From Zygnema cylindricum (lineage: Eukaryota; Streptophyta; Zygnematophyceae; Zygnematales; Zygnemataceae), in NCBI GenBank assembly GCA_037447655.1, contig JBBHKE010001543.1, forward strand, positions 1-64,000: DNA of 64,000 nucleotides. Direction: 5' to 3'. Below the pieces are notes generated by a model. The model had not been told where the DNA came from. It ran no database searches and was given only the letters and a program-made list of their open reading frames with translations. Below are positions 1,394-43,089 of the stretch, in pieces. Within the stretch, counting starts at the first letter, position 1. Each line of letters opens with the position of its first letter. The position numbers and the translations under genes were made by a program.

Positions 1394-4300
1394 TTAATGC
1401 AACCAAATATCTTTGAACTCTCGGATTACCGAGATTAGTTGGAAACGGATGAAAGCTTGCACAGGTTCCGTACGGTACAGCGAGTATAGGACACCAACAA
1501 CCACCAATGATATGAGAGTGATGGAGTTTACCAGAGGAAAGGTGACACTGTCACGATCGCGACGCATTAAGGTGAATTCTGGGCGAGAGAGAAGGCTCAC
1601 ACTTCCACTTAAGTTGCGAATTGAACGGTCGATACGGCCATCTTGAGGTGATCTGAGATAACACCATAGCTTCAAGGTCATTTGAAGGCCAAAAAATACA
1701 ACACACAATCAATCTTACGGCCGTAGGCAAATCAGCCTTCAAAAACTTCGATTTTGCGAGTCTGAATGCAATTTCATGAAGTGCACGGATGGATTTTTGT
1801 TAGATGCAAGAATGATTTTTTTAAACGGCCAGATTTGAGAGTCCACTTTCCTCAATCTACAAGCTCGATTGCAAGGTAGGAGCACTGGAAATTGTGTACT
1901 TCTTATTGAAAGGTGTACCGCAGAAAAACTTACCCAAACCATCTTTGAAACAATGTCGACCAGTTCTTCAATATCTTCCTCCATATTGCCTTTTGCATAT
2001 GCACATCGACCTCAGGGTGGATCTGTTTCTCCACTTCAGCCGCAGGGCCTGTCCTCCCGCCAGACTTAAGCTTAGAGGAACATAAAACAATAAATTAAAG
2101 CAAAAAAGACAATTCCATACCTCTGGAAAAATACCCTTTGTACCTCCGTCCCAAAGGAATTCAAAATGTCGTGGCATCTCAATAAGAAGACGGATGGGCA
2201 ATAAGAAGACCAAATGGGGAATCAGAAAATAAAAAACTATCCCGTGGTCACGAGCAAAATATACAAATTCTTTTCAAAAAAGGAGAGGGGAAGTTAAAAG
2301 AGAGGGAAAGTGATCGGCAATATGACGACCAAAGAGGAGCTCAAAGAGCAAACTCTACCCTTAAATATACAGTGGGTCTTGACAAGGAGGGAGAGGGAAA
2401 GGGGAAAAAGAGGGAAAATGAAAGATGACCCAAGGGAAGGTCAGAGATAAAAAAAAAATACCGTGGTTACGATGGAAAGCGTCTGCGAGCTCTGCCGGAG
2501 TCTCATCCCACTCCACCTTTCCCACAACTGCCGGCTCATACCATTTTAGGATCATTGAAACCGGGGGCCAGAGATACGCGCAGATGAGAGTACCCCAAGC
2601 AAAAGCCACAACCTGACCCTCCATACCACCCACATGAGAAACAATTTTGTCACTTTTGGAGTCATCAGTTGGGCAGAAATGAAAAGATAAACTCATCGAT
2701 TTTCGACAGTTGAAAATGGGCGTATCGGACATCACCTGCCCAACTACGTAGTCAACAGAGTAGTAACCGAAACTGAATCGCAAAAGATTAATGATGACTC
2801 CCAAAGTCATAATGGCGTAGTAGAGAAAATAAACCCAGGTAGTGCAAAGCCCTTGCCAAATGTTTCGTTCGGCGTCCTTTTTTGTCACCGTGAAGCCAAT
2901 CTGTTGCCCATCTTTCCAGGTCATGTTAACTGAAAGGAAGAGAACATGACTGGACTCACATATGACTGGGTATTACAAGCTGATTAACCTACACAACCTT
3001 GCACAAAGTTAGATATCTTGCCAGCCAGGAAAAAACAGTACCAAAGACTCAATGCCTGAAAATACAAATTACTGAATCCTGTTCTGCATGACTGTCAAAT
3101 AGCTGCAACATGGTTAAAACATTGCTCTATAAACATCCCAGCATATACACCTAATTAACGGCACATATGTTTTAGTTTTTCTGTTTGTAAATGTATGGAA
3201 ACCGTATATATCTAGTAATCCCATACATGCTTATTCATCAATTGAATAAGTATTTAGTACGAGGAAACTACATATACTTTTTTATTCCTTTTTGCACATT
3301 AGAACTATGCTGTGTTTCAGAAAACAGTGGCCACCACTACTGATGGAAACTAGGGTCCAGAAAATGCACGGAGCAAGTCTTGTCATTCTGTTTGATAAAT
3401 GACAGCGGTATTTCCGGCTTACTTTTCGCCAAAAATCAGAAGAAAATCTCTCCGCATGGAATGTCTATCCATACCTCTGAGGCGCCCAGAATCTTGAACA
3501 TCCACAGTTCAGAAGTGACCACCTTCCAGCAAGCTTCCAGATTGTTGGGAACCGTCCATACCCATGCCTGGGTTCCTCTCCACATCTCTAAGCCCTTATT
3601 AGGCACCCCATTGTGGGCTGTCCAGATCATGAGACGGTTGCAGCTGTAATACAAGCTGAAGAACAAACAGAACTCGCTCACACGAGCCATGATGGGGCTT
3701 ATTGCGAAGAACATGTAAATGATAGGCGCCAAAATCACAAGGAACGTGGGAAGGGACAGCCAGTACTGAAGATCCCCCAACCCTCCTCCCTCCCTTCACA
3801 ATCAGGAGAATGCACAATCAGATGGTTACCATAGCTGAAGCTTTTTCAATGATCTCTTATCGCTTTACCAAAACTAACCTGACAGGCTGACTGAAAGAAA
3901 AGAAGTGATTGCGGGATGGTCAGCTCCGGTTTGAAGAGAGGGTTGTCACGGCACAAAATCTGGGCACAAATGCATTTCAAATTTCAACAATTAGGACATC
4001 CCACTTCCTTGGAAGTTTACCACATGCAAGCGCACATCCCTCACACAACCGACCCTTCCGCGCAAAACATAACCATAAGCATCCGTACCTTCCAGAAAAA
4101 GAAGGGGACCTGTTATACCACATTCACAGCCAATATCTCATTATGGGAAAAGCCATCCTCACGGCTAAATGTATTTGCAATCGGAGGCTTACTTCGGAAT
4201 GCGGTGACAAAACTCCATTTAAATTATTATATGGGGAGAACCTCTGAATTTGGGGATGTCAAGCTACGGTCTCACGTGAAAAGGAAGGGGAAATTTGCTG

Positions 4301-7300
4301 CCAGGAGTTGGCCCAGAATTTTCGTGGGCTATAGTTCGGAAGGAAATATTTACCGTGTATTTGATATGGTTCGTCGCATTGTGGAAAATTCCCGCAATAC
4401 CAATTTTCATGAGGATTTAAAATGGGTTATCGAGAAATCGGTCGCATTAAAGAAAAATCTTGATTTCTACAAGGGAGGACGATGTCGCAAATTTCCGGGT
4501 GGATTCGGATGAGGATGAGGAGCCGCAATCCATTGTCAATGTCAAGAATGGAAAATTGAAAGCAGATTTGGGTTCGGAGAAATTGGACATTGACATCGAT
4601 GTTCGAAGCAATGTGAGCCGAAATTCTAAAATGTCAACGTAAACTCAAAATCGAGTTTGCCAAATGTGGATGAGGAGCAGCAAAATGTAGAACAATTTCT
4701 GGTCCTTAGGAGGAGTATTCGAGAAAATAGAGGAAAGAAACCGAATCAGCTTTCTTATGACAAAATTGGTGGAGATAATTCCAATTCTCATTATTTCATC
4801 TCCAATGTGAAGGAGACGAAATTCCTCTTGTAGCAATTAATGTGCAAGATTTTGGCCGGCGATCCTCAATCATACACCGAGGCGAGAAATTCGTGTGATT
4901 GGGAATCGAAGTGGAAGCCGGCATGGGAGAAAGAGTATAAGTTAATAGTGGAGAATCGGACATTTCAGGAGGTGACATTACCGGAAGGGAAGAAAGCGAT
5001 TGATGCAAAATGGTCTTCAAAACAAATACGGATGCATCGGGTGTGCCACAAACTTTTTGCAGTGACATCAGCAGATATAAAGATCTGATGGAAATATTAA
5101 GAGGTAGACAGAATGAACAAAATAAAAAACAATAACATGTTGCAGAAGCTATTAGCACCTGCAATGAGCCCATTGCCCAACGAAGCCGCTGTTTGAAAAC
5201 GGCATTGAGGTCTTCCGGAGCCAAACCATAGATTAGGCGCTCATTTAGGTAGATGGATGAGAAACCTGCACAGCACAAAAATGGATAAGAGAATCAATTT
5301 TGTTTTCACCATGTTATCTTGGGATCAGAAAAGGGCTTTCTGCATTCATAATTAAAAATTTCAGCTATACAGCCCAACAAAACAACTGGAAAGGATTGAA
5401 ACGATTACTAGTGGCTTCATTTGTACAGCCCAGTAAAGAAAGGGAAAAAAATGCAGCAGTCCTTTTTTGTTTCCAAGCAGTTCTCATTAAGATGATAAAA
5501 CACAGTACTGCCCAACCAGCTGACACAGTAAAGATTTGTTGCACATCACATTTGGTATACATTGTAAATACAATAGAACGCATTAAGGTAACAGCAACAA
5601 TCCTCACCTGCCCCCATGAATGTCATTGCCGTATTGTAGTCCTCAGTGATTGAGCCAAACGCCTGTCCGCCAATAGAAATGAGAGCATCACGACGGAACA
5701 CCACTCCAGTTCCCACACAAGGACACGCTCCTAAACCATCCCTGCCCTGCATCATAGGGCCATAGAAGAAGGCAGCTCGGTGGCCCATAGGATCATCTCT
5801 GCCTACATTGTAAAAATCCTGCGACAAACCCATTTCCTCCCGTGTAAGTTAGAGAGGCAAGGGCAACAAGTTTCTCTTCAATTAATCTCACTAATTTTCC
5901 ATGTTCATCAAATGAACTGGCCAATGTCAAACGTAACCTGTCTGTTTACAGGTTGTAAATAGCTACAGATTGATAATCAAATTATAAGATGTTAGTGATT
6001 AGAAATGACTTATGATCCAACATAGCAAGTTTCCTTTCTCCTGCCAGCCAATTTCTTTCCGCGCTACTGTTGAGAGAGCTTGAGCAGCTTCCTATCCCAT
6101 GTCTGACAATTGCGTGTAGGTAACAAAACAAAAAACCAAACCTGAGGAGTCTGTACAAAGGCCAGCTTTCTCCGGAGCTCCCACCCATCTTCAATTTTCT
6201 CAAAAAAGTGCCCCATGACGCGATCCAAAAAGTCTGGTCGTGGAATCATGTCGCAGTCAAAGACCACCACAAAAGCCCCCTGCTTCCCCCCCTGTCGCAT
6301 GCCTTTCAAAAGTTGACTATTGATGTTCCCAGCCTTAGCGTGGTGTGGTACTCCTTCCACCTGCAATCCCAAATATAATTGCAGAGCCCTATATCATGAC
6401 CCGCACAAGAATCACACAGTACCTCCAGCCCATCCATTCATACTCTGTAAGGTCCCCATGTAATTATGGGCATTATAAAGTGCTCAACCCGCTGCTCAAT
6501 TCCGCTCTTTGGTCAAGTGTGTCTACACTATAGTGCCTCGTAACACTCACCTGCAGCTCCTGGTTTCTTCATGCTTCACAACAGGGGAGCAAATCCCTCA
6601 CCTTGATCCTAGCCGAATACTGAAGCTTTGCCCAGCCCCGACCATAAGGTCCCGACTTTTTCAAGCACATTTCTTGTTGCAATTTTGTGCAAGTTTCTTC
6701 CACCTGCTTGCGTTTTCCATCGTCTAAAACCCACACCTGTAACTTCGCCGGTGGGTACCTGTTCATGTAAACTGTTGAACAGAATCAGCGTTTGGAAATT
6801 GGCACACCATTCTTTCTTTGACCAAAAAAAATGGTGTGAATGATAGCCAGAGTTCCAAATGCTTCATTAAGAGGTCTTAAGCTGTTGCATTCGAGCATCC
6901 ATCAGGTCATCATAACTGGGTTCCAATGTTATTTGGTATAAAACTTTCCATTTTGTAAGCTAGGCGCTTCATAACTTTATCATTTAGAAAAGCTTGCTGT
7001 TCAGCCACCATTTCTATTATATAACCACCAGTGTTTTTATCGACAGGAGACCTAATAGGGTAACTACACATACAGGATTTCTTGCCAGTAACCACAGGAA
7101 CTGTACAGAACAATGTACTAAACGTACACTTTTCGTAACAACTATTGACTGGCCAGCAGCGATGATAATCACATATGCAATATCCCAATAGGAGTGCACA
7201 AACATAAAGCAGCAGAGGGGAGGAATTGATGCGCTGAAATTGCAAGTGGGTGGCGAGGTACTCACGTCATGTTTAATGCAGCACAAACCGTTGCTTCAAT

Positions 7301-7543
7301 GATGGTAACCGGTTCATTAAAACAGACCACATAAACATCCACAGCGGGAAAGTCATTGGGTGAGAGACACATGCTCTGAAGAGAGCGGGGATCCCGCTCC
7401 ACAGGTGTCCATATCTCCATGCAAAAGATAAAGGATGGAATAAATGTAGCAAGCTCGGCGAGGAAGAAGAGGAGACTAAAGGCAAGGTGTTCACGATTGA
7501 TACTGTACCGTGCACGCCACATGAAGTAAACTATGCCTGCTAC
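1394..7543 (-). CDS. Exons 14-24: GT2 processive polysaccharide synthase domain
   Basis: Residues about 841-1523. Two N-terminal membrane segments precede the catalytic loop. All four processive GT2 signatures are present: VLDDGK (D945/D946), FDCD (D1020, D1022), ITED (D1124) and QRLRW (1160-1164). Between them are KAGNIN, YGPMMQGRDG and VGTGVVFRRDAL, as in cellulose-synthase-like enzymes. About five membrane segments follow, including WLSLPTFLVILAPIIYMFF and FPLVNSITLISLVVVGVLY near the C terminus. It would transfer sugar from a nucleotide sugar to a growing beta-glycan and pass the chain through the membrane. The catalytic residues are intact. The closest named group, from memory, is moss arabinoglucan synthase and fungal Tft1-like mixed-linkage glucan synthase. 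Confidence 0.82.
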
Positions 7544-10500
7544 CTGCGATACGCCCACATCATTCACGTCATTTAAACATCATTTATACACACATCATTA
7601 TTTACATGAATGATGATACACCAACATCATTTATATGTCAATCAGCAGAAAACGTAGCGAATCCAGCAGATCAAAAAAATCAGATCAGATAAATCTTGTG
7701 GCTGCACCCACCAAATCCTGTTACACTTCTGTTCATCTGAAAAGATCAACAATGCATTCTTATTGCTTCACATCATCCAATTCACTTTCAGTGACTAAAC
7801 AAACAGCTGCATACAACATAACGGCTCCAAGGATCCCTCCTCCAACCCACCTGACAAATGACAGCAAGCGAACGCCAGGAATAAGTACCCTTCTTCAGTA
7901 CAGTTCCATGTGTGCCTAAACCGTAATTTACGCGCCCAATGAAATCCTGCACTGCATCGTTCGGGTTTTGCATCTTGCCCAACAGTGGAGTCATCAACCC
8001 ACTCCCTTCAATGGCCAGATTTGAGCCATCAAACTCTTCTTGGTCCGGAACAGATACAGGAGTCAAGCTGTGCTTAACCAGGTGAGGAGCTCTTTGACTG
8101 TCTTGTACGGATAGAGATACTGGCGTGTTGTACATAAAAGAAATTTGTTCATTTGGAGGAGGAGCACCCTGAGGGAGTGTAGGAAAGACCAGAGGTACAT
8201 CCAGCTGATTTCCCTCATTTTGTTTGTCGAATCCAGCGTATGAACTGATTGCCTTGTACAAGGCCAAGGCCAGCTCTATGTGGTTGTTTTGCCAGGCCAA
8301 GTCACCAGGTGTAGCACCCTGAACAAAGAACACAGGAACAGTGCATAGTATCATACAGACATCGATACGATTTTCCAAAAGACTATTTTTTTTTTTGTAA
8401 GACTACCGTGATCACTGGCCAGTATTAAGAATAATAGCATAGGTAAAATTACCCTATAACCGAGGTAAGTAGGGCACCTGGAAGTTTTTCAGGCATGGAT
8501 TAGCGCCAAATTGCAGTAGAATACGAGCCACGTCAGCAAAGCCATTGGCAGCCGCATAATGTAGTGCTGTATCTTCCCAGTTCTCCTCCTTTTTGCAATG
8601 TACATTGGCGCCACGAGACAAAAGCCATTCCACTGCAGTTACCTGAAAGCAACGCCGGAAGATAAGCTATCAAAACACTTTTGAAGAGGAGAAGAAATAT
8701 CAGAACGGAAAGAAGAAGGAGAACGAGGAGAAGAAGGAACAGAAGGAGAAAAAGATAAAAAGAAAAAGGATAAAGAGAAGAAGGAGAAAGAAAAGGAGTA
8801 GAAGGAAAAGCTAAACAAGAAGGAGAAGAAGGAGAAGGAGAAGGGGAGGAATTTCTATCAACAACAATAACCAGCTCATCGGCCACACCCAAAAACACTT
8901 GTGAACATGGTTCACATCACTGATTTTTTTATCTATTTCAGAACATGTCATCATGGCATATACAATCGAGTGTGTGAAACATGTTGTATTTGAAATTAAG
9001 TTTACGTGCGCGCATGTTTGTGCGCACGTACTATATTAAAGAAAGAGTGATAAAGGTTCAAATGGATCCACGTTGGGAGAGAAAAAGTGTGAACGACAGT
9101 CTAAACTTCGAACGGGAAATTGAAAGTACAGAGCGTCTGTAATTAAACGGTGGATCATTGCAAACTTACTTGTACCATGTACCATGCTCCGATACCATAT
9201 TGTTTTAAAAGCTTTGGTCCTCTCACAAGTAGGCTGTGAGAGGGGACTTCAGGACTTAGAAAGTTTTTAGAAAGGGAAACTCTAATATGAGAGTGAATTA
9301 GTGTGACATCCTGCGCGCACGGATTTCAGACGCCGAGGGGCGGTGGGGGGCTGAGCGCAGGTGGGGCGCCGAGACCCTCGACGGCGCCAAAAGTACTTAG
9401 AACCGGAATGTAGGTTGAGTTGACACATGGTAAGATCAATGACGTTACAAGATCGATCTAACGGAGTACCCTACGCACCCTAAAAACCCTAAAAAACCTC
9501 TAAAAGCAACATGGGAAATCTGATCCTGTAAGAAGGACGGCAAAGGTCGTTGATGAATCTAATCTAACATCCGTCATAGATTTGGAAAGTGACTCGGACA
9601 GTGCTAATGCAGCTATCCTATGCCATGCTATCCTACGCCGTGTACAAAATTATGTCAGCGCTGTATTTCTTGAAAACAGAATGTTGTCGCCTTGTGTATT
9701 AATTAATTTATAGTCTGTACAGATAAAAAATTCAGCTAGGGAATTAAAGACGGGAGACGCCAAGATCTGTTTTAGGATCTGTAACGTAAACTAAGTTACA
9801 GTACATTAGTTGTAGGTGGTTCCTAAGTGTATATATTCATACAAGCTGTGTAAACCAGATTAAGCGAAAAGTAGGGACCGAAGATTTTTTACCTTAAAAT
9901 TGTCGTGTGTGTGAGAGGTGCTTCGAGTGTGTGTGAGGTGCTTGAGTGGGAGACATAGTTTCTATTATTAATGAAAAGTGTGAGTTTACACACAAAGTGT
10001 TCTGTCATTGTTAAATGTTGGTTATACTTCTTTTTTATGTTAAGCATTGTTTACGGATTGTTTAGTTTCATTTCGGATGAAGCTTTGATGAGCATTTTGC
10101 ATGAGAGTTGTCTTCACATGCTGGATTCTACACAGTGATTTAGTCTGATTACTTAGTTGAGCATTTTGTATGAAACTTTGACAGGATGTCTACGCATGCT
10201 TGATTCTGCAATCTCATTATTCTACACACTCACTGGTGTAGTCTGAATATTCTCCACTGGTGTAGGCTGAGAATAATGAGAGTTATTCTTAAATGAGATT
10301 TATGTGTCAATAGTCCTGGGTGTTTCAGCGGCCAAAAGGGCCAAAGTACAACAAAACACACCTGGTCTTGAATTACTGCAGAATGCAAAGCAGTGAAACC
10401 TAAAAGTCCCATATTGACATCAAAACCCTGCATTTTTGATATCGCCTCCATTACAGATATATTTCCCTGCACACAAATCAGTTTATCAAGCACAAAATCC

Positions 10501-13500
10501 ACGTTAGGATGTAAGACATAACCACTATGACTATGCACTTCCATGCAATCATCAAACATAAGCTTTCTTTCCGCTTCAAAGTATACAATTGACAAAAAGA
10601 TTCACTGAAGAACATTTACATTCAGAATATTTGACTGCAATCTGTGAGTTACATGACAATCCTACGGCTATAATGAGAGTCGAATGAGAGTCACACCTCG
10701 GCTGCTGCAAAGCGAAATGCTCCTCCGACAGTATTACACGTCTGCTTCCAAGCCCGTAAATGACGGCGGGTTGTGACATAGAGAGCCGTGACAAGGAGGG
10801 CGATAATGACCACAATAAGAGTAACCTCACCCTCCCGGAGGCGCAATTTTGAGGGTGTCAATGGAGCAGGAGGTCGGGGACCATCCCTTGCTGCCTGAAT
10901 TGCCACAAGAGATGACCGCGACGTACACATATTTGACCTGCAAGAAGCACTCCAAAGGAAATTGGAGGTGAATCACTTAAAGCAGACGGTGGTTGTGTAC
11001 CAACAACAACATTTGCTGATGCCGCAAACAGGTGACCAATCACGATGGGAAACAGAATAAAAGCTTGGGCTCTAAAAGTAGCTGAGCAACACCAATTTAT
11101 CGGATAAAATTGGGTTTCCGTTGCCTTCAAAATAGACTTTATGTCAAAGCCAATGAAATCAATGGCATCGAATGGACAAGCCTTACCTATTGAAGGGATT
11201 CTTCTGAAGGGGCCGAACAAAAGCACTGTAATAGAGAGTGCCTTCCTGCCAGCTGGGATCCTGGGGCTCCTTGAAGGTGATACTAATATTTACCAACAAT
11301 TTTTCTTTCCCCGTGACAATAGTTGAACCTGAGCCAAACAGAATATCCGGAATGCCGTCCTGGTTTACACTGCAATCCTCAGACCCAATGCATCATCACC
11401 TTCAAATCCTTTTTCAACCAAAAACAATCCTTTTCCACCCTACTCCACCTATCCGCAAAGATGGAGTTGCCTACTGGAGCAACGGAGAGTTGCTCACCTG
11501 TATATTTCCACTCCGACTTCTGCTTCATGGCCTTGGGATGGGACGCTGACAGTGAGTGTGATCGTCTGGTTAGCTGCATCATACACACGTGATATGTTTT
11601 GAAATACACAAGTACCGAACAATCAACCTTCTCCAACTATTAAGATAACCAAATAGTGAGATAAAACAAACTCAGTGGGAATAGAAGTCAGTTTCATTAT
11701 ACATCAACAAAATATACCATGTATATACCCCTTTTACTAATAGATTAGTAAAGATCTTCCTTAGCTGATGATTGTTTTTAATTTGTATAATTTGATGCAA
11801 TAGTAAACTACACCGTGAATCGCTATTAGTGTTAATGTTTTTTTTTAAACATAAAAACATCTTTTCTCCGTACACACATGTTGGATTGTGAATCTGACGG
11901 TTGCGATCGAAAGGTATGATTCTCAGCCTCTGATTGGCCGTCTCAAACTGAAAATTAGACAAGTATATACAGAGAAAAGATGTTTTAAGTGTCGAAAAAA
12001 TCATTAACACTAATAGCGATACACGGTGTAGTTCGCTGTTCCTTGTTGGACATTTGAATGAAAATTTGAGCTATTTCACCGTAATCCTAGGAACAACTCA
12101 GTTTTGTTATATAAAATATAAAATGCAGGTTTCCATCTTTTGTAAGCTAATACAGAATCAACACGCAAATATTGAGTACCATTTAAAAAAAAAAACTAAT
12201 TGAAACCCATTCCTGATTGTGAATAGCTGCATCACCTAAACAATCACATTAGTCTCACATTAGACAAATCATCTCATTCTTCAACCAAACGAATTTTATC
12301 ATCCACTTTCAAGCCAGAGCTAGCATGTCAGAACAAAAAAAAAACAATCATAAACAAAACGACAGCAAAAGGAGCTCCAGGAAATGTGTTTAATTTATCT
12401 CCTCGATTTCACATGCAATATTGGAATTAAGAAGTCGTTTAGAGGCAGTCACCTACTGATGATTTTGATATTTTTACATGCGATGCTTGCATCCACCAGG
12501 CGTTCATCTCTGTGGTAACCACTCAGCACTTTCCAGTAACGATGCCCGTTTTCAAGGACCTGACACATTAGGACGGCAGGACAGCTCTCATGGTAAGGAG
12601 AAACTCGGTCTGCGCGTCTTTGCCATGTCAGCAAAGGGATTTAGTCACTAAGGAATAGTACATTGAACACACTGTTTAATGAATCCATTCCCTTCACTTC
12701 CCAAGATTGTACCTTTTTATTGTTGCAACTTGCAAACCAAATGCCTCAAAGGAACAATACGGCCATCAAATAGCCATCTGCCACTAACCACAGCTATTTC
12801 TTGTCCCCACCTGCTTTAGCATATCTTGTCGAAATTTGCGTCTCACGATCGGATTGTTGGAGAAGGTCCAATCCACAGTAAGTTTGCCCTGACAGGCCAG
12901 GCCCGGTCCCAAGTAGTGCTGTTACTGCCCAGCTCAGGCCCTACGTGAAAATCCCTGGTGAACTCCTGGAGACCTTGGTTTGAGTTAGAGGTCCAGTCCA
13001 TCACGCCTGCTCCTCCTGCCAACAGCAATAGCTTGGACTGTCACAGTCACTCTCTACGAGCAAGCCCATCTAAAAGCGTCGGGACTTCTATCTTTGCTCC
13101 AGCTCCCTGTTGAGCCACCTTTATGCTAATAAGAGGCCACAGTAATTCACCTGTCTTCACCTGGGGTCCATTAGAGCCTTTAACATATTCAGCCTTTCGA
13201 ATGCATCATAGTCAGCTGGAAAGGAGGCACTTCCACTCATATTTTTTAATGACTAAACATGTTACGACCCAATACTCCACTTCCTACTACACCGTGAATC
13301 GCTATAAGCATTAATAACGCTAATTCGGCGCCCTCAAATTTTGACCCTCAAACCTAAAATAGAATTAATAACTCTAATTTTTTTTTCGTTAATATAAATT
13401 CTGTTCAATTAGCGCTAATTACTCCAAATTCAACTGTTTTTAAATAGTGTAATGTACAAAATGTGTTCAGCCCTTACTAAAACTGCTCATTATTTCGTAC

Positions 13501-16500
13501 AGACATACAGAATAAGTGTGTGTCAGAATAAGTGTCAGTGTCAGAAAAAGGCGTCGACACGGGAAATTGAGAGGGTCGCCACAGAAAAGCGCACTCAGAT
13601 TTGATTCCCAGTCATTAAGACGAGGGAAAATCGCGAGAAACTGTTCTCACATGTTCAAGCGTCGAATATGTGAACACAGACTATCGCGGCTACAATATGG
13701 GAATATGTATTCAAATTAGTGTTAGGTGTATAAATTAGCGTTAAGTTTTGTTGGCATTAGGCCCTTGAACCCAAAATAAAGTTAATAACACTAATTGTTT
13801 CTTTACACTAATTATTTCTTAACTCTAATAGTGATTCACGGTGTACCTGTCCATTAGAAGCTGTTTACTATGTCACACTATTGAAGTTCCGCAAACACTT
13901 ACTTCCCTTATCAACCATAAAGGCGTGTTCCATATATGTTACCACTCATCACATGCCAGTATTAATGGAAGAGTTAATAACCAAGAGAAGCAAGGTCCCA
14001 AGATTGATTTTTTACAACAATCCGGGATATAGGCGGTAAAGTCTTCACCTCATGTTTGCGCTCATCGACCCATGATACCATTTTAAGGCGTGGTAGCCAC
14101 TTTGAAACATCACGAGCGCCCGATTTGTCAACTCCTACATTGAACAGCTGCAGCACCATGACATCTGATGTCATTCCATGAAAGGTTTTGATCCTTCAAG
14201 AATTGGTGATTACAGTCAGAAAAAGATGTATGGCTTAACTCCCAGTGATACACAAAAGACACGCATGCAGGACACATGAAACATCAGAATATACAGATAT
14301 ATGTCAGCCTGCCCAATTTTTGGTCTTTCCCAACAATTATAAAAGACTCCGTAATAAATTAATAAATTATCTTTCTGACTAAAGGTAAACACAAAATCAG
14401 CTACAGAATGCTCTTAAAAAACCTCCAACAAAATTATTTTGCTGTGATGCTTTCAGACAACATTGCAATATTGCTATGATTGAACAAGGCACCACTGTCT
14501 AAATAAACCTGTCTTACACAAAAGCAAATGTACCCATAGGGACAATGTTCAGCAGAGGGAAATCTGTGAGGTCAATGCCAGCTAATGAGTTGAGCGACAT
14601 TCACTGAACAACAGAGAAAAAAATCAGAGCTATGCTCTCCTATTCATGTCATGAATCCGGTGAAGAAAAAGCTTAAGTTGCTTTCACCTGAGTCCACCAA
14701 TCAGATTTTACTGCCAACTCTGTGTCACAACATTCACTGTTGGGATTCCACATTGCAGACACCTCTGGAACCGCAAGTGGTTTCATGTGGACAGAGTCAT
14801 TACAGAACATGGCATAAAAATCTGGCACAGCCGTTTCATTGCCGTTTTCACCGTCATAATTGCCTGTGAGCTGCAACCATGGCACAAGCAAAGTTTCTCT
14901 CTTTCAAGCAAAGTTTGATGCATATGCTCGGCAGACATTACTAAAGAAGAAAACCGATAAAAATAAAGTTTTTAACGTGTCCAATTAGATGCCATATGCA
15001 AATGCAACGAATTGTGACTCCCATCAATGACATTGGTCAAAAAAAAAATCATATGTGAGGGGCTTTGTCATAAAGCTTTGCAGATAGGCAAAAATCTCTA
15101 TATCAACAGATCAAACATCATAACAACAATGTTGTCTGTCTAGTGGAAGGGATTGTCGACAGAGCACATACCCTATCCCAGAAAGCGTTTGGCTCTGGAA
15201 TCACATTTTTGCCCCACGGTGCTTTACGCCCCCAATGGTACATAGTCATTCCCACCCAATCCACAACGTCGTCTCCAGGATAGTATGGTGTATACATGTC
15301 ATCCTCCATTGTCAACTTCCCGTCATTGTTTGTATCCAGGATGTTGAAATCTGAGCAGAACCATTTCCTGCATACATAAAAACCGGCGAACGGATAACTT
15401 CCACCATTGTTGGGCGCCCATAACATTGCTGTTCGACACGTAAAAGACTGTACAAACCGAGCCACCATACGGAACTTCTCCTTGTATTTAGTTGGCTTTT
15501 GACACCATGGATACCTGCAAAACACCCAAGACTAAAAAAAATCATGAAACGGAAAAACGCTCTTTTCAACAAATGGCTACAATAAGGTTGAAAATTCACA
15601 AATGCAATCCATAACAGTCTCCATCTCGTGCCTCTCCGTTGACTGGTTTACAATTGGGCTGAAAAAATTTAAATGCAATCCATGGCGCTGCTTCCATCTC
15701 CTGCCTTCCAATGTCTCCCTACATCTTCAAAAAGGAATCCTCATAATCTACATATATGTAAGTACATCACCAGACTGCACCCTTCAGGAATTTTAGTCAC
15801 TCAGTTGATTGCGCTCACCAGGCACCATTCATCTCATGGCCGAACCGCAGGAAAAATGAGACGCCCAAAGTTTCGTAGGGTGCGATGAATTCCACCAATT
15901 CACGACATGCCCGTTCTGTTACAAAACTGAGGCCAAGGTAAGGCTCCAAGGTGAGCACCAGCATTCCATTAACATTAGCAACCTGCTTCCAAAAGTTTCC
16001 AATGAAAACAATTAGAATTCAGCTGAGGAGGTGCATACTATCCAAGATACGAAAAACAAAATGCTCAATGCACTCCTTCTCTGTCATTGGAAAAAGTGCA
16101 ATGTGACAACAGCATTTATACTCCATCATTCACAAACACAGGTAAAAATGGTTTTTTGTTCCCAATCATATTTGACCATTCTACAAAATGCATCCGGATA
16201 AAGTTGCTAATCAAGTTTGAAAATTGAGTTTTCAACACAAAAAAAAAATTGCTCTCACAAAAATTTTGCTTGTGCATCACTGGGATGACAACTGCACAAG
16301 ATTGAATGAGTAACTTGCTAAACAAAAAAAACAAAAAAGCAAACCTATAAACATTTTTTTTCCACTCTGGCGTTAACAACAAACTTTCCTGCTCCTCCAT
16401 GCTTGCCATAAAACAAACAAAGAGAAAGAAGACTAGCCTGCTTCAGAAGAGGTCGCAGTGACTTTTTGTCTCCCAGCGTCATAGGAAAATGGCAAAATGC

Positions 16501-16782
16501 TCCAATAGTTGTCGGCTTAAATTGGATAAAGTCAGAATACTTCTCCAGAGACACAGAGTTGTTATAGGTCACACCGACATATGCACCCTCCACGGGCTCC
16601 AGCAGTGCTCGTCTCACTCCTTTTGCGGAATCAGAAGAAGCAAATAAGTTTGATAGACCATGCGGAATTTTATGATTGTGCGGATTTTGAGGAATGAAGT
16701 TAACACCGTCAGAGTGTCCTAATGCAGTTGAACTTAAGATCAAAGAGAGAACGATAGCAATAAGCACAGCCATGGTTGCCAT
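1394..16782 (-). CDS. GH26-like / transmembrane / ankyrin / GT2 polysaccharide synthase fusion, 24 exons
   Basis: Spliced gene, about 1,523 codons. Exons: 16782-16438, 15983-15820, 15514-15172, 14870-14688, 14147-14049, 12888-12811, 11947-11878, 11573-11498, 11369-11187, 10937-10697, 10466-10362, 8642-8478, 8318-7851, 7543-7266, 6758-6602, 6360-6142, 5836-5608, 5265-5159, 3959-3879, 3765-3475, 2900-2736, 2612-2462, 2048-1934, 1652-1394. Every junction keeps phase. All introns are GT-AG except intron 1, which appears GC-AG. The start is the ATG at 16782, which opens a signal peptide; the stop is TAA at 1394-1396. The GT2 part resembles the moss arabinoglucan synthase / ascomycete mixed-linkage glucan synthase group (family knowledge, not searched). 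That both catalytic parts sit on one polypeptide is inferred from the split ankyrin repeat at the exon 10/11 junction and from unbroken phase. Least certain is the exon 20/21 acceptor, which has a weak pyrimidine tract. Confidence 0.8.
4040..5085 (+). mobile_element. Internal fragment of a Ty1/copia element in intron 18
   Basis: Plus-strand reading, opposite to the host gene. The 5' part matches the copia integrase C-terminal region (WPRIFVGYSSEGNIYRVFD, then NFHEDLKW). The 3' part matches the start of copia reverse transcriptase (DPQSYTEA, then PEGKKAIDAKW). Stops and frameshifts occur and no LTRs are visible, so it is a dead internal piece. It accounts for the large intron between the QRLRW exon and the next exon. 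It belongs to a different copia lineage from those after 27 kb. Confidence 0.75.
7851..10937 (-). CDS. Exons 10-13: transmembrane helix and ankyrin repeats of the fusion
   Basis: Residues about 514-840. Exon 10 has a proline-rich stretch (GPRPPAPLTP), then one helix, VTLIVVIIALLVTALYV (about 552-568), followed by RRHLRAWK; the positive-inside rule puts the next part in the cytosol. The ankyrin run begins at the exon 10/11 junction, where FAAAE from exon 10 joins GNISVMEAI from exon 11, a single repeat split by the intron. Further signatures are GFTALHSAVIQ, DTALHYAAANGFADVARIL and GATPGDLAWQNNHIELA, giving about four repeats. A low-complexity cytosolic linker (about 700-820) leads to the synthase. 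The repeats probably bind a partner or order the complex. Confidence 0.75.
8690..8850. repeat. Purine-rich (GAAGGA)-type tract in intron 11
   Basis: About 160 bases made almost entirely of A and G on the plus strand, variants of aggagaagaa. In the minus-strand transcript this is a long pyrimidine tract just upstream of exon 12, where it could act as an extended acceptor tract. Confidence 0.8.
9302..10007 (+). mobile_element. Probable solo LTR or LTR-like element in intron 11
   Basis: Starts tgtgacatcctgcg and a plausible end is ttctgtca near 10007. It contains a TATA-like gtatatatt near 9828, followed by aaaagtagggaccgaagat. The same TATA-then-motif arrangement recurs near 23170-23240. I could not find matching target duplications, so the boundaries are uncertain. 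Degenerate cccta-aaa telomere-like repeats occur near 9478-9500. Confidence 0.45.
11187..11947 (-). CDS. Exons 7-9: beta-rich linker domain of the fusion
   Basis: Residues about 405-513. Alternating hydrophobic strands such as NQTITLTVSVPSQG and KEKLLVNISITF suggest a beta-sandwich, as in carbohydrate-binding or Ig-like modules next to glycoside hydrolases. I recognise no specific family. Exon 7 (70 nt) begins after a strong acceptor (taattttcag), starts in phase 0 and ends in phase 1; exon 8 needs exactly one base to complete its first codon, so exon 7 is required for the frame. Exon 9 ends in AG before gtaagg and joins the transmembrane exon in phase. The domain would sit outside the cell between the hydrolase and the membrane. 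Confidence 0.6.
11811..12028. mobile_element. Inverted-repeat (MITE-like) structure with TA flanks enclosing exon 7
   Basis: Outer arms of about 27 bp begin caccgtgaatcgctattagt at 11811 and match inversely to 12028 with one mismatch. A second inverted pair, aaaacatcttttctc, lies inside. TA dinucleotides flank both ends (11809-11810 and 12029-12030), as in Stowaway/Tc1-mariner-type elements. Exon 7 (11947-11878) with both its splice sites lies between the arms. A longer relative is at 13290-13843. Confidence 0.75.
12811..16782 (-). CDS. Exons 1-6: signal peptide and GH26-like glycoside hydrolase ectodomain
   Basis: Residues about 1-404 of the fusion. Residues 1-22 are a hydrophobic signal peptide ending near TALG. 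Exon 2 ends in RFGHEMNGAW, the GH26-type acid/base motif with E165. Exon 3 continues YPWCQKP (the family usually has YPWG), then PNNG and an acidic DTNNDG loop. Exon 4 carries LAVPEVSA, with E320 as candidate nucleophile. Exon 5 has LKMVSWVD and exon 6 VDWTFSNN, typical of the barrel's last strands. GH26 enzymes cleave beta-mannans or mixed beta-glucans; the substrate here is unknown. Both catalytic glutamates are present, so activity is possible. The signal peptide implies an extracellular location. Confidence 0.75.
13290..13843. mobile_element. MITE-like element in intron 5, related to 11811-12028
   Basis: Ends share caccgtgaatcgctat (left) and its inverse, atagtgattcacggtg (right), with TA on both sides. 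The interior of about 500 bp is AT-rich with internal inverted motifs (taacactaat) and no gene. It shows that the terminal repeat family is multi-copy. Confidence 0.7.
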
Positions 16783-27580: not shown

Positions 27581-28468
27581 TGTTGAAAAGAGTTAATTAA
27601 TAGTTCACTTCTTTATTTTAGTTTTACTTTAAAGAAAGAGAGTGAGGATCAAAGGCACACCATGGCTGCCGCCATATTTAGAAAGTTGCAGATTTTGAAA
27701 TAGAGGATTTTTTACTAAAATGTTGCCTAAGTCCAGATTTGAACTTGTGTCTGTAACCATCTACATAGTTGTACCTCTTAACCACTAAGGCGTTATCGAA
27801 AAGATACTCGTAACGGGTTTCAAAGATATATAAACATTAACGCAACAGCTAATTAACAGCAGACTAACCAAAAGGAGCAATTCATGCATGTACGCGAATC
27901 TGAACCGTGTAAAACATGTTTTGATCGGACGGCCGGCATTATAGCCGCCACGCGAAGTGAGCTTTTGGCGGCATACGGAGATAGCGTCACGCGGTGCCAC
28001 GTGGCGCCACATTTTTTGATATCGGAGAAGATGGGAGGAGGAACCATGGCTTCCGATTTGATAGGAGTCACCTTGTAGACCTTGTCGTACAGTGGTCGTA
28101 CTACAAGTACATCTCCCATTGTACATTCTTGTACTATATAGTGTTCCTATTGGAATAGCGTTTAGTAGTAGGTATTCGTGAGTAGGCAGACCAAGACTTA
28201 GTAATATTTAGGTACCTCTCTCCAAGAGAGCTTGTAACTATAAAGGTCATCTTTGACCAGCCATAACTTAATGCTCAAGGGAGCAAATTTAGTGATTCTT
28301 TTTGCGTTTGACTCAGGGGAGTCTTATCCTCATAGGGGTGAGGGTGGTCGGAAGACTTTTGTGCCTAGGCGGCGCTTATTCAGTGGGAAAGTGGAAGAAG
28401 AAAATATTATCCTAGAAGCTTTACATAGGCTGCTCATTCTGTGGGTCAATGAAGACCACAGAATTTCA
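27581..28468 (+). mobile_element. Copia A 5' LTR
   Basis: Starts TGTTGAAAAG and ends GAATTTCA (888 bp). The same start recurs at 39931 (3' LTR) and, more diverged, at 58340 (copia E). Followed directly by the primer-binding site. Confidence 0.85.
27730..27798 (-). other. tRNA-like Pol III unit in the copia A LTR, antisense
   Basis: On the minus strand: D-arm/A-box-like CCTTAGTGGTTAAGAGG (27790-27774), then B-box-like AAGTTCAAATCTGG (27746-27733), then TTTT (27720-27717). Spacing fits a tRNA gene. The 3' LTR copy (about 40078-40150) keeps it with substitutions. The cloverleaf is imperfect, so I do not call a tRNA. Confidence 0.6.
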
Positions 28469-28483
28469 GGTTATGGGCCCACC
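28469..28483 (+). promoter_or_regulatory. Copia A primer-binding site (initiator tRNA-Met anticodon loop)
   Basis: GGTTATGGGCCCACC follows the LTR end directly. It is complementary to GGUGGGCCCAUAACC, the anticodon arm of plant initiator tRNA-Met, not to its 3' terminus. This is the half-tRNA priming type known from Drosophila copia. Its ATG is in frame with gag. Confidence 0.85.
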
Positions 28484-31400
28484 CTCTAGGGTGCCCATAT
28501 TTGATGGATCAGAATTTTTGTATTGGGAAATTATGATGGAGGGAGAACTATTTGAGAAGCATCTATGGGGCATAGTGTCTGGACAAATTCGATGCTCACC
28601 TCCACCTAGATTTGGAGGGACACGTTTTTCTAGCACCTCCGCCTCTACAGTTGGTAGAACAGCTGCCACCATCACCGAGGATGAAGATGAAGAAGGAGAG
28701 GAGATTGTCATGGAAGGAGAAAAAGGAGGAGTTGCAACTCAAGTGATACCATTGGCAAAGGCGATACCGGCAGCAGCACCACCAGCAACAACGATAAGGG
28801 TTCAGACCGAAAGATCAGAGTATGAAAAGTGGAACTACAAAGACAAGGTTGATAAGCTCTTAATTCTTAAAAGTGTAGCAAAGGGCATTGCCATTCCCTT
28901 TATGCATGTCATATCTTCATCTCAGATTTGGATATCACTAGTTAATAAATATAAGAGTGGATCATTGCCGCAACAACAGTTGGTAGAAAATAAGATTGTA
29001 GCTTATACTTATAAATGAGAAAGTATGAATAATTATTGCAATGATTTAGGAGCATTATTTGGAGAGTTAGAGAGTGCAGGTAACTCATGGTCTGAGAGAC
29101 AAAGAGTGAACACATTAATGATGAACTACCTGAAGAGTATGAGAATATCATTAACCAATTGCAGGACATAGGAGATAGCAATTGGAATTGGGATGACAGA
29201 GTGGGAATGATTTTAGTGAAAGAAAGCACCATAGAGCTCAGGAGAGGGAGTCCAAGTGTTCAAGCATTGTCTGCAGGAGCTGATTGGCGGAAGCGTGATG
29301 AGGAGAGAGGGAAAGATCCGAATCAAAACTTTGGTGGAAGAGGACAAAGAGGTGGCAGATTTGATAGACAGGGGAGAGGAACTTCTCGAGGAGGATTATG
29401 TCACTTCTGCAAGAAACCGGGACACTATATGGCAGATTGTGTCAGACTTGCTGATCTTCGACTGAAAGATGGTCAAGGAACCTCAAAGGACGGAGGAAAG
29501 AAAAAGGCTTTCTTGACTCAAGTTCTTGATGAGGAAGTGGAAGAAAAAACTGAACCAGAAGAGGAGCTTGAGGAGCTTCTCCTTAATCCGAAATACACTG
29601 AAAAGCATGTCGATTTTCCACGGAGACAAAAGTGTGCTTTCGGAGGTAAGAGGGATCCACCCGAGGATAGGTGGATCATAGACTCAGGGGCTTCAATGCA
29701 TATGTGCAAAGATAAGCGGTGGTTCACTAAACTGAGAAAGATCTCAACAGTTGAGATAGAGTACGGAGATGGTAGAGTAGAAACCACAAGTCTTGTTGGA
29801 ACTGTTGACTTGAAGGTTCTAGTTGATGGAAAGGCCTCAATTGTAACACTCTCAGACGTTCTTTACATTCCACAACTTAGCAAGAACCTAGTCTCAACAG
29901 CTGTCCTAGATGAAAAGGAGTTTGAAACAAGAACTAGGAAAGGAATCTTCACAGCAAGCTTTGATAATGAAGTTTATTTCATAGCTCAGAAGGGCAGTCA
30001 AGGAATGTTCAGAATTGTTCTTTGCAATGAAAAGAGTGTTCTCTACTCGTGTGCAAGTGAGATGATGCTTTGGCATAAAAAGTTGGGGCATGTGCATCTA
30101 GATATATTAAAGAAAATGAAGAAAAAAAGAATAGTGGAGGGTATTACATTTCAGGATGATGAGACCTTTGATGATTGTATTGGATGTGCCCAAGGGAAGA
30201 TTCATAGACTTCCATTTCCAAAGGCAACCACATTTAGGAGAGAGAAAGTATTAGATCTAGTTCACACTGATGTTTGGGGACTAGCTAGGTATGCTTCACA
30301 TAGGGGGAAGAGATGGATGTTAACTATCACAGATGATTGGTCTAGATACATGAAGGTATACTTTCTCAGACATAAGTCAGAGGTATTAAGATGTTTCAAA
30401 GAGTATAAAGTATGGAGTAATAAGCTACATGAAACCTCAATAAAAGAGATAAGAAGTGATAATGGGAAAGAATACACCTCAAGGGAATTTGAAGAATATC
30501 TTAAAGAAGAAGGAATTCATCATGAGAAAACTGTTTACTATAATCCGGAACAAAATGGAGTAGCAGAAAGAGTGAATAGAACTTTAGGAGATATGTCCAG
30601 AAGTATGTTTAGTGACAAGAGGGTAGGGCTGCAGTTTTGGGCTGAGTCTATGAACTATGCTAATTTCATCAAAAATAGAGTCCTAACTTCAGCAAATAAG
30701 GAGGAAACTCCGTATGAGAGGTGGACAGGAAGAAAGCCTGAGTTGTCTAGTTTGAGAGTGTTCGGAAGTCAAGTTTATAGTTTGGATTCCGATAAGACTA
30801 AATGGAAGTTAGAGGGAAGAGGGAAACCATGATATCTTGTATGATATGATGAGAGCACAAAAGGATATCGGGTGTATGACTTGAAAAAGAGAGATATAAT
30901 TTTGGTAAAACAAATAGTGGTGATGAATGAAGTGAAGTCCATTGACCCATTCAAATATAATAAGGAAGTCAAAATCAGATTTGAAACGGATCAGTTTTAT
31001 GACTTTGACTTTGAAAATGAAGAGAAGGAAGATTAAAGAAAAAGGAAAATATGGAGATCTACCAAAGGAGGAGGAAAGGACAACATCCGAGGCAACGCCA
31101 CAATAGGAAGTAGAAACCGATGAAAATTTTGATTACACCGAAATTGGAAGATAGGGGAGCTGAAAATCTTCCTAAACGAAACCCAAGGATGCCTTCTATA
31201 CCGGCTTCCGATTTTGAAGGGGGAAGAAGAAGTAGTAAAAGACTTCAAGAAAGACAAGTAAATAACCAACTCACAAAGATGCCTCACCCGAGTGAACCTC
31301 AGACATACTTAGAGGCCATAAACACCCCTGAAAGTAGTCGGTGGATCACAGCTATAAATGAAGAAATGGCCACTATCATGGAAGCAAATACATCGGAGTT

Positions 31401-32340
31401 GGTAGATTGTCCACCGAACAGAAAACCGATCGGATGTAAGTGGGTTTTTAAACTTAAATTAAACCCTGATAATACCTTTGAGAGGTACAAAGCAAGGTTA
31501 GTTGCAAAAGGTTATACTCAGAAAGAGGGGATAGACTACGAAGAAACCTTTGCACCTGTAGTCAGATTTCCTTCTGTTAGAATCCTTTTAAGTATAGCCG
31601 CAGCAGAGGATATGGAAATACACCAGATGGATATTAAAACGGCCTTTTTGCACGGAGAGTTAGAAGAAGAAAGTTACATGAGGCAACCGGAAGGATTCGT
31701 GGAAAGTGGGGAAAAAAGCAAAGTTTGTAAACTGATAAAATCACTCTATAGGCTTAAGCAAGCCCCGCGACAATGGAATATAAAGCTAGATGAATTTTTG
31801 ACCGGTTTGGGGTATATCATAATTAGTTCAGATCACTCTATATATTTATTTGAGGATGAGAATGGAGTGATATTTATTGCTATATATGTGGACGATTTGT
31901 TGGCCTTAAGCAAGTCCTTAATTAAAATTAACAAACTAAAACGGATCTTAGAAGCAATTTTGATATGAAAGATCTCGGCGAAGCAAAGTATATTTTGGGA
32001 ATTCAGATTGAGAGAGATAGAGGGAATAGAATTATAAGACTCACTCAAAAAGAAGCAATCGGTAATATGCTAGAAAAATATCAGATGGAAAAGGCAAACG
32101 GATGTACTACTCTTATGGATTTGAAGAAAGTGTCTGAGGAGAGTGAAGAGAGAGGAATATTGGTCATTAATAATAAAATGGATGAGATAGAAAGGAAATT
32201 TATAGAAAATATTCCTTATCGGCAGATTGTAGGCAGTTTAATTTATTTTATGAACTGTACCTGTCCAGATATAGCAGCAGCTGTAGGTGTCCTTAGTAGA
32301 AGTCTAAATGAACTAAGAAAGAGAGACTGGGAGGCTACCA
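28473..32340 (+). pseudogene. Copia A gag-pol, 5' part, decayed
   Basis: Order: gag (PIFDGSEFLYWE), zinc knuckle CHFCKKPGHYMADC, protease WIIDSGASMHMCKDK, GAG-pre-integrase MLWHKKLGHVHLD, integrase (HTDVW, SDNGKEYT, PEQNGVAER), then RT with GCKWVFKLKLNPDNT and YVDDLLALSK. Stops or frameshifts near 29016, 29100, 30830, 31035 and 31967 kill it. The reading breaks at RSLNELRKRDWEAT, where copia B is inserted at 32341, and resumes with RNase H at 39541. Confidence 0.9.
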
Positions 32341-33386
32341 TGTAGAAATTAATGGTTTTAAGTATTTTCTAGGTCTGAATAGAAACAAAGAAGCCGAGGC
32401 AGTCTACCTCTAACTTCTCTCTCCAACTCTCAAACTTGTCGCAGTCACTGAGAAATTGGAGAGGAAGCTAGAGCCATGGCTACCTAGGCTATCCTCAGGT
32501 TTACGGGAAATATATATTAGTCTAGGAATTAATTACTAAAAGGTATGTGCCGGCGGCAGGATTTGATCCTGGTACCTGCCGGCCGACAGATGGTTGATAG
32601 CCAGTAGCCTTAGCCGTTAAGTTTAGAAGTAGTGTTACATAGCATATAGCACGATAATTATTTATACAGGTACACGTAGAATATTTCATTTAACTATAAC
32701 AGTTAACGGGATACATAGATATGGTAGTGTAAAAGTACGAATTGCGGTACGGAATAGAAATCAATACCGCACATTGATTTCGTAAGCAAAACAAATACCG
32801 CGCATGTATTTATTACGGCTACGATCAAATGCGAGTTTAATCGGACGGCCGGAATTAGCGCCGAGATCGCGGAAGCCGAATTCGGCGGTTTTTGGACATT
32901 GCCACATCGGATGACACGTGGCGATGCTACATTGGAGGGCGGCATCTCCGAGGATTAAAGGAGCGAATCTTGACATTCCACGTGTGGACATTTAGACCAT
33001 GTCGTACACTGACCGTACATAAAGTACACCGGCAGCTGTACTTTTGCGTACGGAACTGTAATCCGATTGGTCCGTACATCAGTAGATAGAGTTTGTGAGA
33101 GAGATAGGACTTAGAAAATTTAGAAGATAGGACCCTCTCTCCCAGAGAGCTTTTGTACAAAAGGTCAACTTTGACCCTGCATAACTTACTGCTCAGGGGA
33201 GCAAATTCAGAGATTCTTTTTGCTATGGACTCAAGGAAGTCTTGCCTTCACAAGGGTGAAGGTGGTGAGAGTTTTTGTCTGCCAGGGTGGCGGTTATTTT
33301 TGCTTAAACACAAAGGGGTCAGGATTATCCTAGAGGCTTCTTGGAAGCTGTCCACTCTGAGGACTTATGGAGGTCTCAGAGTTTCA
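32341..33386 (+). mobile_element. Copia B 5' LTR
   Basis: TGTAGAAATTAATGG to GAGTTTCA, 1,046 bp, inserted into the RT-RNase H region of copia A. Contains two CACGTG boxes (32915-32920, 32979-32984) and repeated taccgcgcat-type motifs in U3, and the antisense tRNA-like unit. Confidence 0.9.
32550..32622 (-). other. tRNA-like Pol III unit in the copia B 5' LTR, antisense
   Basis: Minus strand: CTTAACGGCTAAGGC, then CCAGGATCAAATCCTG (GATC within the T-arm-like hairpin), then ACCTTTTAG. Same layout as in copia A although the surrounding LTR sequences differ greatly. Confidence 0.6.
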
Positions 33387-33401
33387 GGTTATGGGCCCAC
33401 C
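33387..33401 (+). promoter_or_regulatory. Copia B primer-binding site (initiator tRNA-Met anticodon loop)
   Basis: Identical 15 bases to copia A, directly after the LTR. The internal ATG (33391) begins the gag reading MGPPSRVPIFNG. Confidence 0.85.
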
Positions 33402-33663
33402 CTCTAGGGTACCAATATTTAATGGAACTGGCTTCATATACTGGGAAAGTATGATGATAGGAGCTCTATGCGAAAAAAGGTTTTGGGGGATAGTGAGTGG
33501 ACGATTGGGGCGTCCATCAAGTCTTGGAATTCCTCCAGGGTTTAGAGGAAGCAGATTCACCAGGAAAGAGGATTCACCTTCAACGGAAGAAACAAAGGAA
33601 GGAGAGGTGGTGGACAAAGGAAAGGAGAAGGAGGCGACCACACCAATAGCAACTGGTTTAGCA
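33391..33663 (+). pseudogene. Copia B gag, N-terminal part
   Basis: Gag start MGPPSRVPIFNGTGFIYWES, about 90 residues, cut by the LTR-like insertion at 33664. Gag resumes at 34451. A start at 33367 inside the LTR is also open, but the PBS ATG directly precedes the conserved part. Confidence 0.75.
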
Positions 33664-34450: not shown

Positions 34451-34453
34451 TTC

Positions 34454-41274: not shown

Positions 41275-41880
41275 TTACGTCCGACCCCTATGGGCGCCTG
41301 CCCCTCCACGTCGGCCGAGAAAGTTGGCAGTTCCCCCCCCAGATTGGGGAAGCCAGAGGAAGGCGGAGGATGCTTGAATGAGTCCTATACTGATTTCCGG
41401 GTCCTCATCATGCCGAGCTCCGGTGGAATCTATAATGGAGGGATCGAGATTCCAGCTAAAGCCGTCGACATTGCCATGGTTTTCCCTTGCCCGGTGAACA
41501 ATGTCCAAATCACATTCCTGCAGGATAAAAACCCACCTGGCGAGTTTGCCGGTTAACTTGCCATTTTCTATGATCAATATTAGGGGTTGGTGATCCGTGA
41601 TCAGGGTGAAATGGACCCCGTACAAATAAGGCCAGAAATGCTGGATTGCCCAAACCGCTACGACTAGCTCTCTGTGGTAACTACTATAATTTCCCTCTGC
41701 CCTGTTGTTGCTCCGGCTGGCGTAGGCCTCCACATATTCAGCTCCAGCATCATTGACTTGAGCCAAAACTGCTCCCAATCCAAACCTGCTCCAATCACTG
41801 AAAAGGAGGAAAGGCCTCTGGTGATCAAGCATACGGAGCACTGGGTGTTGCTTCTCCTTTAAAAATTGGAAGGCGGTCTA
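41275..41880 (-). pseudogene. Gypsy C RNase H
   Basis: LLFSDWSRFGLGAVLAQ, then YHRELVVAVWAIQHFWPYL and ITDHQPL, the Ty3/gypsy RNase H pattern. Separated from RT by a stop and frameshift near 41880. Confidence 0.85.
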
Positions 41881-42990: not shown

Positions 42991-43089
42991 TAAGCTGTAG
43001 CCATCTTAGCCGCCCCCCCCCCCCACTAGGAAAACGTGCGGCGGTGAAATGTCAATTTTTCCTTTTCTTCTTCTTTCTCTCCCCCCCTC

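Follow-up and report, generated by a model that had tools for sequence, protein, structure and literature searches.

A single gene in a 64,000-nucleotide (nt) stretch of the streptophyte alga Zygnema cylindricum (contig JBBHKE010001543.1, positions 1 to 64,000; the window) encodes a 1,528-amino-acid (aa) protein, hereafter the window protein. In it, a glycoside hydrolase family 26 (GH26) domain, a linker, one transmembrane (TM) helix, ankyrin repeats and a processive glycosyltransferase family 2 (GT2) core follow one another. This fusion is real, is kept in relatives and, as far as we found, is undescribed; it is a variant of the synthase-hydrolase fusion of tunicates. We propose, with a probability of roughly 0.6, that the GH26 domain acts as a tethered biosynthetic hydrolase that would cut or release the β-glycan made by its own synthase. 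Related proteins are given P-numbers and bacterial loci L-numbers.

Gene structure and the junction between the halves

The gene and the two exons of most concern here are as follows.

1394..16782, minus strand: whole gene, GH26 - linker - TM - ankyrin - GT2; 24 exons, in-phase joins, no internal stop, 1,528 aa
10697..10937, minus strand: exon 10; end of the linker, TM helix and start of the ankyrin region within one exon
1394..1652, minus strand: last exon; hydrophobic helix at the C-terminus (about aa 1483-1501), then the stop codon

The coding sequence begins with the ATG at 16782 and ends with the stop at 1394, and 22 of the 23 introns are GT-AG, the first being GC-AG. Unguided exon chaining gave a draft of 26 exons with one in-frame stop; alignment with the relatives P0001 and P0002 changed five places and yielded the 24-exon, stop-free model, from which the stop is absent, marking it as a fault of exon choice and not of the gene. 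The corrected model is collinear with P0001, P0002 and P0003, a collinearity that is partly guided, since the correction drew on P0001 and P0002. Pfam scores, hydropathy values and the identities to P0001 and P0002 were obtained on the draft protein. An earlier note on this DNA had reported a stop-free chain of 24 exons together with its start, its stop and the residues E165 and E320, and the corrected model reproduced all of these; this convergence on an independent exon count and independent residue numbers confirmed that the observation is real.

Searching with the draft protein (words from its first 500 residues) gave 18 matches among 5,860 candidates, three of which share the domain order of the window protein. 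P0001 is a EukProt Trinity transcript protein marked as a complete open reading frame (ORF; 55% identity, 96% coverage of the draft), P0002 is an uninterrupted 1,534-aa ORF on a 5,924-nt contig (50% identity, 97% coverage), and P0003 is the gene model jgi/Chlat1, Chlorokybus by its name (42% identity over 40%). Profiles for the four regions were run on 135 proteins, with results for P0001-P0060, among which the order of GH26, linker, ankyrin and GT2 was found only in the window protein, P0001, P0002 and P0003. Absence of the fusion from relatives, which the earlier note had named as a sign against it, was thus not what we observed.

In the window's species the gene was modelled on genomic DNA, and exon chaining could have wrongly joined two separate genes. 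This is exceedingly improbable. Exon 10 by itself codes for the last part of the linker, the TM helix and the beginning of the ankyrin region, which places the fusion point within one exon; any separation of the halves between exons 9 and 11 would therefore require an internal start. The same domain order is found in the transcript protein P0001 and the uninterrupted ORF P0002, and on these grounds we rejected a two-gene model and retained the single polypeptide claimed earlier. Bacterial contamination was also rejected, as introns split the GH26 part itself.

Domains of the predicted exported and cytosolic halves

The N-terminal half, up to the TM helix, carries the following features.

16717..16782, minus strand: signal-peptide-like N-terminus (aa 1-22); hydrophobic aa 4-22, mean hydropathy 2.35
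12823..16611, minus strand: GH26 domain (aa 58-400), divided among exons 1-6
15833..15835, minus strand: candidate catalytic acid/base E165 (HEMNG); Glu in all 135 aligned GH domains, role taken from the motif
15301..15336, minus strand: EF-hand/dockerin-like loop DTNNDGKLTMED (aa 230-241) within the GH26 domain; EF-hand Pfam matches under their cut-offs
14763..14765, minus strand: candidate catalytic nucleophile E320 (VPEVSA); Glu in 131 of 135 aligned GH domains, role assigned by motif
10877..12822, minus strand: membrane-proximal linker domain (aa 401-545), probably all-beta; profile matches and a model of the P0002 piece
10769..10825, minus strand: the one TM helix separating the hydrolase from the ankyrin region (about aa 563-581; aa 600-618 of the draft), mean hydropathy 2.59

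The hydrolase matched Pfam GH26 (PF02156) at 26.2 bits on a 230-aa piece, passing the cut-off of 20.2; the whole draft ectodomain scored 22.0 bits, with a best stretch of merely 52 residues. NCBIfam named no family for the domain, which has the fold of the GH26 family. The loop at aa 230-241 has similar counterparts in the other five aligned GH domains, that of a bacterial relative included, and is a possible calcium site. The four fused proteins were the sole matches to the linker profile among 256 proteins scanned, matches that are no independent evidence as the profile was built from these four; the predicted model of the P0002 linker piece consists mostly of strands at low confidence (pLDDT 55). 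The hydrophobic N-terminus, the one TM helix followed by TTRRHLR, and the bias of sequons (6 in aa 23-580 vs 1 in aa 600-845) make it plausible that the GH26 domain is exported and the ankyrin-GT2 part cytosolic.

The GH domain is 65, 61 and 51% identical to those of the three fused relatives, compared with 21-26% for a disordered stretch, which suggests that the domain is under constraint. One alternative to our proposal is that the GH26 domain, although exported, has little or no catalytic activity and merely binds and guides the emerging chain. There is precedent in the tunicate cellulose synthase CesA, whose GH6 domain lacks the catalytic Asp and has been called likely functionless (PMC10334666), and P0002 has QEMNG in place of HEMNG. 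However, in contrast to the tunicate GH6 domain, the window GH26 domain keeps both catalytic Glu, as do all four fused proteins, and it is 38-47% identical to relatives of free-standing length (best 120 of 3,627; see below). We consider a dead domain unlikely.

The C-terminal half carries the ankyrin repeats and the synthase.

8244..10466, minus strand: ankyrin repeats (aa 606-720); Pfam Ank_2 57.4 bits, Ank 52.1 bits
3592..7901, minus strand: TM helices and processive GT2 core (aa 835-1260); Glyco_trans_2_3 (PF13632) 76.3 bits, Cellulose_synt (PF03552) 73.7 bits
6719..6724, minus strand: GT2 D motif, D956-D957 (VLDDGK)
6250..6258, minus strand: GT2 DxD motif, D1031-C-D1033 (FDCDM), identical in all four fused proteins
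5639..5647, minus strand: GT2 TED motif (aa 1127-1129), identical in all four
5177..5191, minus strand: GT2 QxxRW motif (QRLRW, aa 1165-1169), identical in all four
2877..2894, minus strand: FxVTxK gating-loop motif (FTVTKK, aa 1302-1307), present in all four

The GT2 core matched BcsA (5ej1, E 3.6e-47), bacterial BcsA being the nearest among solved structures, and several more hydrophobic stretches are found in this half. The GT2 motifs are identical or conservative across the four fused proteins, and the D, DxD, TED, QxxRW and FxVTxK elements (the last printed as [FXVTXK] in PMC10374906) are all present, placing the core among the processive GT2 enzymes of the BcsA/CesA superfamily. Profile searches and motif positions thus bore out the four GT2 motifs, ankyrin repeats and GH26 domain that had been recognized earlier from the sequence.

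Several retrotransposon-like elements, all named by eye, were also noted in the window. The intron between exons 18 and 19 (3960-5158) holds a plus-strand copia-like fragment at about 4.2-5.1 kb that leaves the coding frame undisturbed. Two Ty1/copia-type bodies with zinc-knuckle, integrase, reverse transcriptase and RNase H-like frames lie at 28416-38513 on the plus strand, the second with ORFs of 895 and 374 aa, and a Ty3/gypsy-like reverse transcriptase with further, partly repeated retrotransposon-like ORFs lies at 41275-53308 on the minus strand.

Relatives of the two domains and bacterial gene neighbourhoods

A GT2 search with residues 600-1260 of the corrected protein gave 357 matches, of which the best 120 were listed. 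The nearest named proteins among them were green-algal ankyrin-GT2 proteins, followed by many bacterial synthases. Ankyrin and GT2 regions without GH26 were detected in 28 of the 42 proteins P0019-P0060, those named coming from Klebsormidium nitens, Nannochloris, Micractinium, Picochlorum, Scenedesmus and the chytrid Boothiomyces. The Klebsormidium protein P0019, named cellulose synthase catalytic subunit, has the same ankyrin-TM-GT2 body as the window protein but neither GH26 nor a linker match; P0019, P0020 and P0027 have merely a short stretch before the TM and ankyrin region. No match named as a land plant protein was found among the matches listed (18 full-length; best 120 of 357 for GT2), where most rows are without an organism name. 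With the same limit, the named proteins of those best 120 included neither a moss protein nor a Tft1, and CslO was not among them; these matches lend no support to the kinship with moss arabinoglucan synthase and Tft1-like enzymes suggested in the earlier note. CslO (moss AGlcS, related to Tft1) is, like the window GT2, a member of the cellulose synthase superfamily in green plants and is tied to β-glucan synthesis (PMC9915684).

A GT2 tree built from 50 domains joined the window protein to P0001 and P0002 (100/100) and then to P0003 and P0019 (96/91), P0003 pairing with the GH-less P0019 (92/87). A second tree, of 40 rows, placed the P0003-P0019 pair and the window-P0001-P0002 group in an open fork and did not repeat the five-row streptophyte clade. 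Since ankyrin-GT2 proteins without GH26 occur in Klebsormidium, chlorophytes and a chytrid, we infer that the ankyrin-GT2 body probably predates the fusion and that the hydrolase was probably added to an older algal synthase.

A profile built from six GH domains, used to trace relatives of the hydrolase, matched 3,627 of the 7,999 best candidates. The best 120 are 38-47% identical over 89-100% of the domain, and those with names are bacterial save one, from Symbiodinium. A tree of 94 GH26 domains, in which the bootstrap was unsettled and composition was flagged as unlike for the window protein, P0001, P0002 and others, again grouped these three (100/100). They fell inside a 13-row set (100/99) that also holds P0003, P0009, Symbiodinium P0136, Verrucomicrobia L006 and a group with Sporolactobacillus L002 and Eubacteriales L001; L022 stands just outside (97/84), and the position of P0003 is an open fork. 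Among solved sequences, a mixed-linkage glucanase is nearest to the window hydrolase; the structural ranking among GH26 enzymes was mixed, with a mannanase first in Foldseek. The GH26 lichenase CelH/CtLic26A, AlXyn26A and the Vibrio β-1,3-xylanase are 16-23% identical to the P0002 model and, unlike the window GH26 domain, are not parts of a synthase.

The same GH26 type was also seen in other settings. It forms the C-terminus of P0004-P0008, which have the domain list of a PQQ-dependent sugar dehydrogenase (P0008, from Chloroflexi, bears that name), and it occurs in P0009, a chimaeric protein with other domains alongside, and Symbiodinium P0136, the domains of these two being nearly identical. 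P0018, named poly-β-1,6-N-acetylglucosamine synthase, is a possible further synthase-hydrolase fusion; its Pfam accessions are ones we take to be GT2, GH18 and polysaccharide deacetylase entries.

A scan of bacterial genomes gave at least 593 stretches, of which 505 were confirmed and the best 80 kept, leaving 79 loci with a close relative of the window GH26 domain. The GT2 profile matched in 22 loci at E 1e-5; after the weak L009 and L010 were dropped, a processive GT2 gene (E below 1e-50) lay within 5.5 kb of the GH26 gene in 20 of the 79. Where a locus extended 4 kb or more upstream and 1.5 kb or more downstream, the fraction was 19/68. The distance from domain to domain was at most 2.5 kb in 15 of the 20, and the GT2 gene was upstream on the same strand in 15 (all but L033, L034, L037, L041 and L077). 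Compared with uniform placement over 8-kb flanks, these arrangements gave p = 7e-5 (within 2.5 kb) and 4e-6 (upstream, same strand), or 0.005 and 0.0008 with near relatives collapsed by hand to 15 groups; these values presume the hand grouping and full 8-kb flanks to either side, and a few loci are shorter than that. All four GT2 motif patterns were present in 19 of the 20 partners, L006 lacking the first by the pattern used. Among four partners scanned, those of L002 and L022 have PilZ and those of L006 and L055 do not, and the L002 GT2 scored 397.5 bits on TIGR03030 (CelA/BcsA), under the cut-off of 699.1. Eight of ten bacterial GH26 N-termini appeared by eye to be membrane-anchored, with lipobox-like (L001, L002, L022, L077) or TM-like (L048, L055, L070, L074) anchors; L006 and L041 did not. 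No ORF in the 79 loci combines GH26 and GT2. In L055 (4055-6537), from Bifidobacterium, two different GH26 genes lie beside a processive GT2 gene; the middle one is on the other strand and by eye resembles the shorter lichenase type.

The bacterial neighbourhoods support the idea, put forward in the earlier note, that such a hydrolase works beside a synthase, and hydrolases have been termed highly conserved parts of exopolysaccharide synthase operons (PMC7710045). They also bear on another possibility, namely that the window hydrolase acts on other polymers, such as mannan, xylan or the walls of food or neighbours, and that the fusion merely holds it at the membrane. The GH26 family includes mannanases and xylanases, which had similar folds in the structure comparison, and in 59 of the 79 loci the GH26 gene has no strong GT2 neighbour. 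Yet the close relatives L002 and L006 and the slightly outer L022 each have an upstream processive GT2 gene (the L001 stretch reaches just 831 nt upstream of GH26), and we regard this possibility as highly unlikely. Because the eukaryotic GT2s form their own group in the 40-row tree (100/99), the bacterial partners are not the source of the algal GT2, and hydrolase and synthase have probably been paired at least twice.

A proposed hydrolase tethered to its synthase

By the reading we favour, the BcsA-type GT2 core would polymerise a β-linked glycan from a cytosolic nucleotide sugar and extrude it via its own TM channel. The signal peptide would carry the GH26 domain across the membrane, where the one TM helix would hold it at the site of chain emergence. 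There, by analogy with the presumed role of the separate synthase-cognate hydrolases in bacteria, the GH26 domain may make occasional endo-cuts that set chain length, release chains or clear misassembled ones. The ankyrin repeats might stand in for the bacterial PilZ domain, serving docking or regulation in the cytosol, and a first guess for the polymer is a β-glucan with mixed β-1,3/1,4 linkage. As to origin, a bacterial-type GH26 would have been added, within streptophytes, to the lumenal N-terminus of an old green-algal ankyrin-GT2 protein.

GH26 enzymes are retaining, and this mechanism would make transfer chemically possible. The domain might therefore be a transglycosylase that cleaves the nascent chain and transfers it onto another chain of the wall, such that one protein makes and grafts the polymer. 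Although charophytes do have transglycanases (PMC10962555, PMC5722204), release or trimming is the simpler guess by analogy with the bacterial operons, and grafting seems distinctly unlikely.

The proposed tethered hydrolase can be set beside known systems. Like the window protein, bacterial BcsA has a BcsA-like GT2 core, FxVTxK and a hydrolase beside the synthase, but the bacterial hydrolases are separate proteins of other families (BcsZ, GH8; CcsZ, GH5). BcsA has PilZ where the window protein has ankyrin repeats; a Pfam scan of the draft window protein found no PilZ, and the window protein scored 265.5 bits on TIGR03030, again below the cut-off. The hydrolase is encoded with its synthase in both settings, by fusion here and as neighbour genes in the 20 bacterial loci. 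Tunicate CesA likewise combines a processive GT2 and a glycoside hydrolase in one eukaryotic polypeptide, both parts being thought to be of bacterial descent (PMC6523144, PMC10334666). In CesA, however, the hydrolase is GH6 and C-terminal, after TM7 (PMC10334666), whereas that of the window protein is GH26 and N-terminal; the Pfam scan of the draft found no GH6 (PF01341) match at E up to 0.01. Ankyrin repeats, present in the window protein, are not mentioned in the passages on the tunicate protein in PMC6523144 and PMC10334666. The earlier note knew of no described enzyme with this domain order; synthase-hydrolase fusion as such is already known, in reverse order, from tunicates (PMC6523144).

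Streptophyte GT2 families are treated in PMC9915684 and PMC11096116; GH26 is absent from the main texts of both, and ankyrin from the main text of the former. We found no description of a GH26-ankyrin-GT2 fusion in the open-licence literature, although one may still be published. In that literature, the term arabinoglucan synthase was found in no paper, no paper has GH26 in cellulose synthase or exopolysaccharide operons as its subject by title, and the sole ankyrin passage found for cellulose synthases in Chlorophyta concerns another gene.

It has long been asked why polysaccharide synthases require a hydrolase, BcsZ in bacteria and KORRIGAN in plants. The window protein, in which both enzymes share one chain at a fixed 1:1 ratio and the catalytic residues appear intact, makes this question directly testable. 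New here is the bacterial gene-neighbourhood signal that links GH26 relatives with processive GT2 genes, which offers a candidate role for a large GH26 group, mostly without a functional name among the matches listed (best 120 of 3,627). At about even odds, GH26 makes up another family of biosynthetic hydrolases that has gone unrecognised, its members in some bacteria being mostly membrane-anchored and encoded beside a processive GT2, and a pair of the same kind having been fused in streptophyte algae with the catalytic site kept, so that glycan would be made and cut in cis. If our proposal is true, the protein would join that of tunicates as a second synthase-hydrolase fusion in eukaryotes, an algal synthase having gained a bacterial-type enzyme. 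The algal relatives of land plants would then have a single-chain system in which synthesis and cutting could be separated by point mutation.

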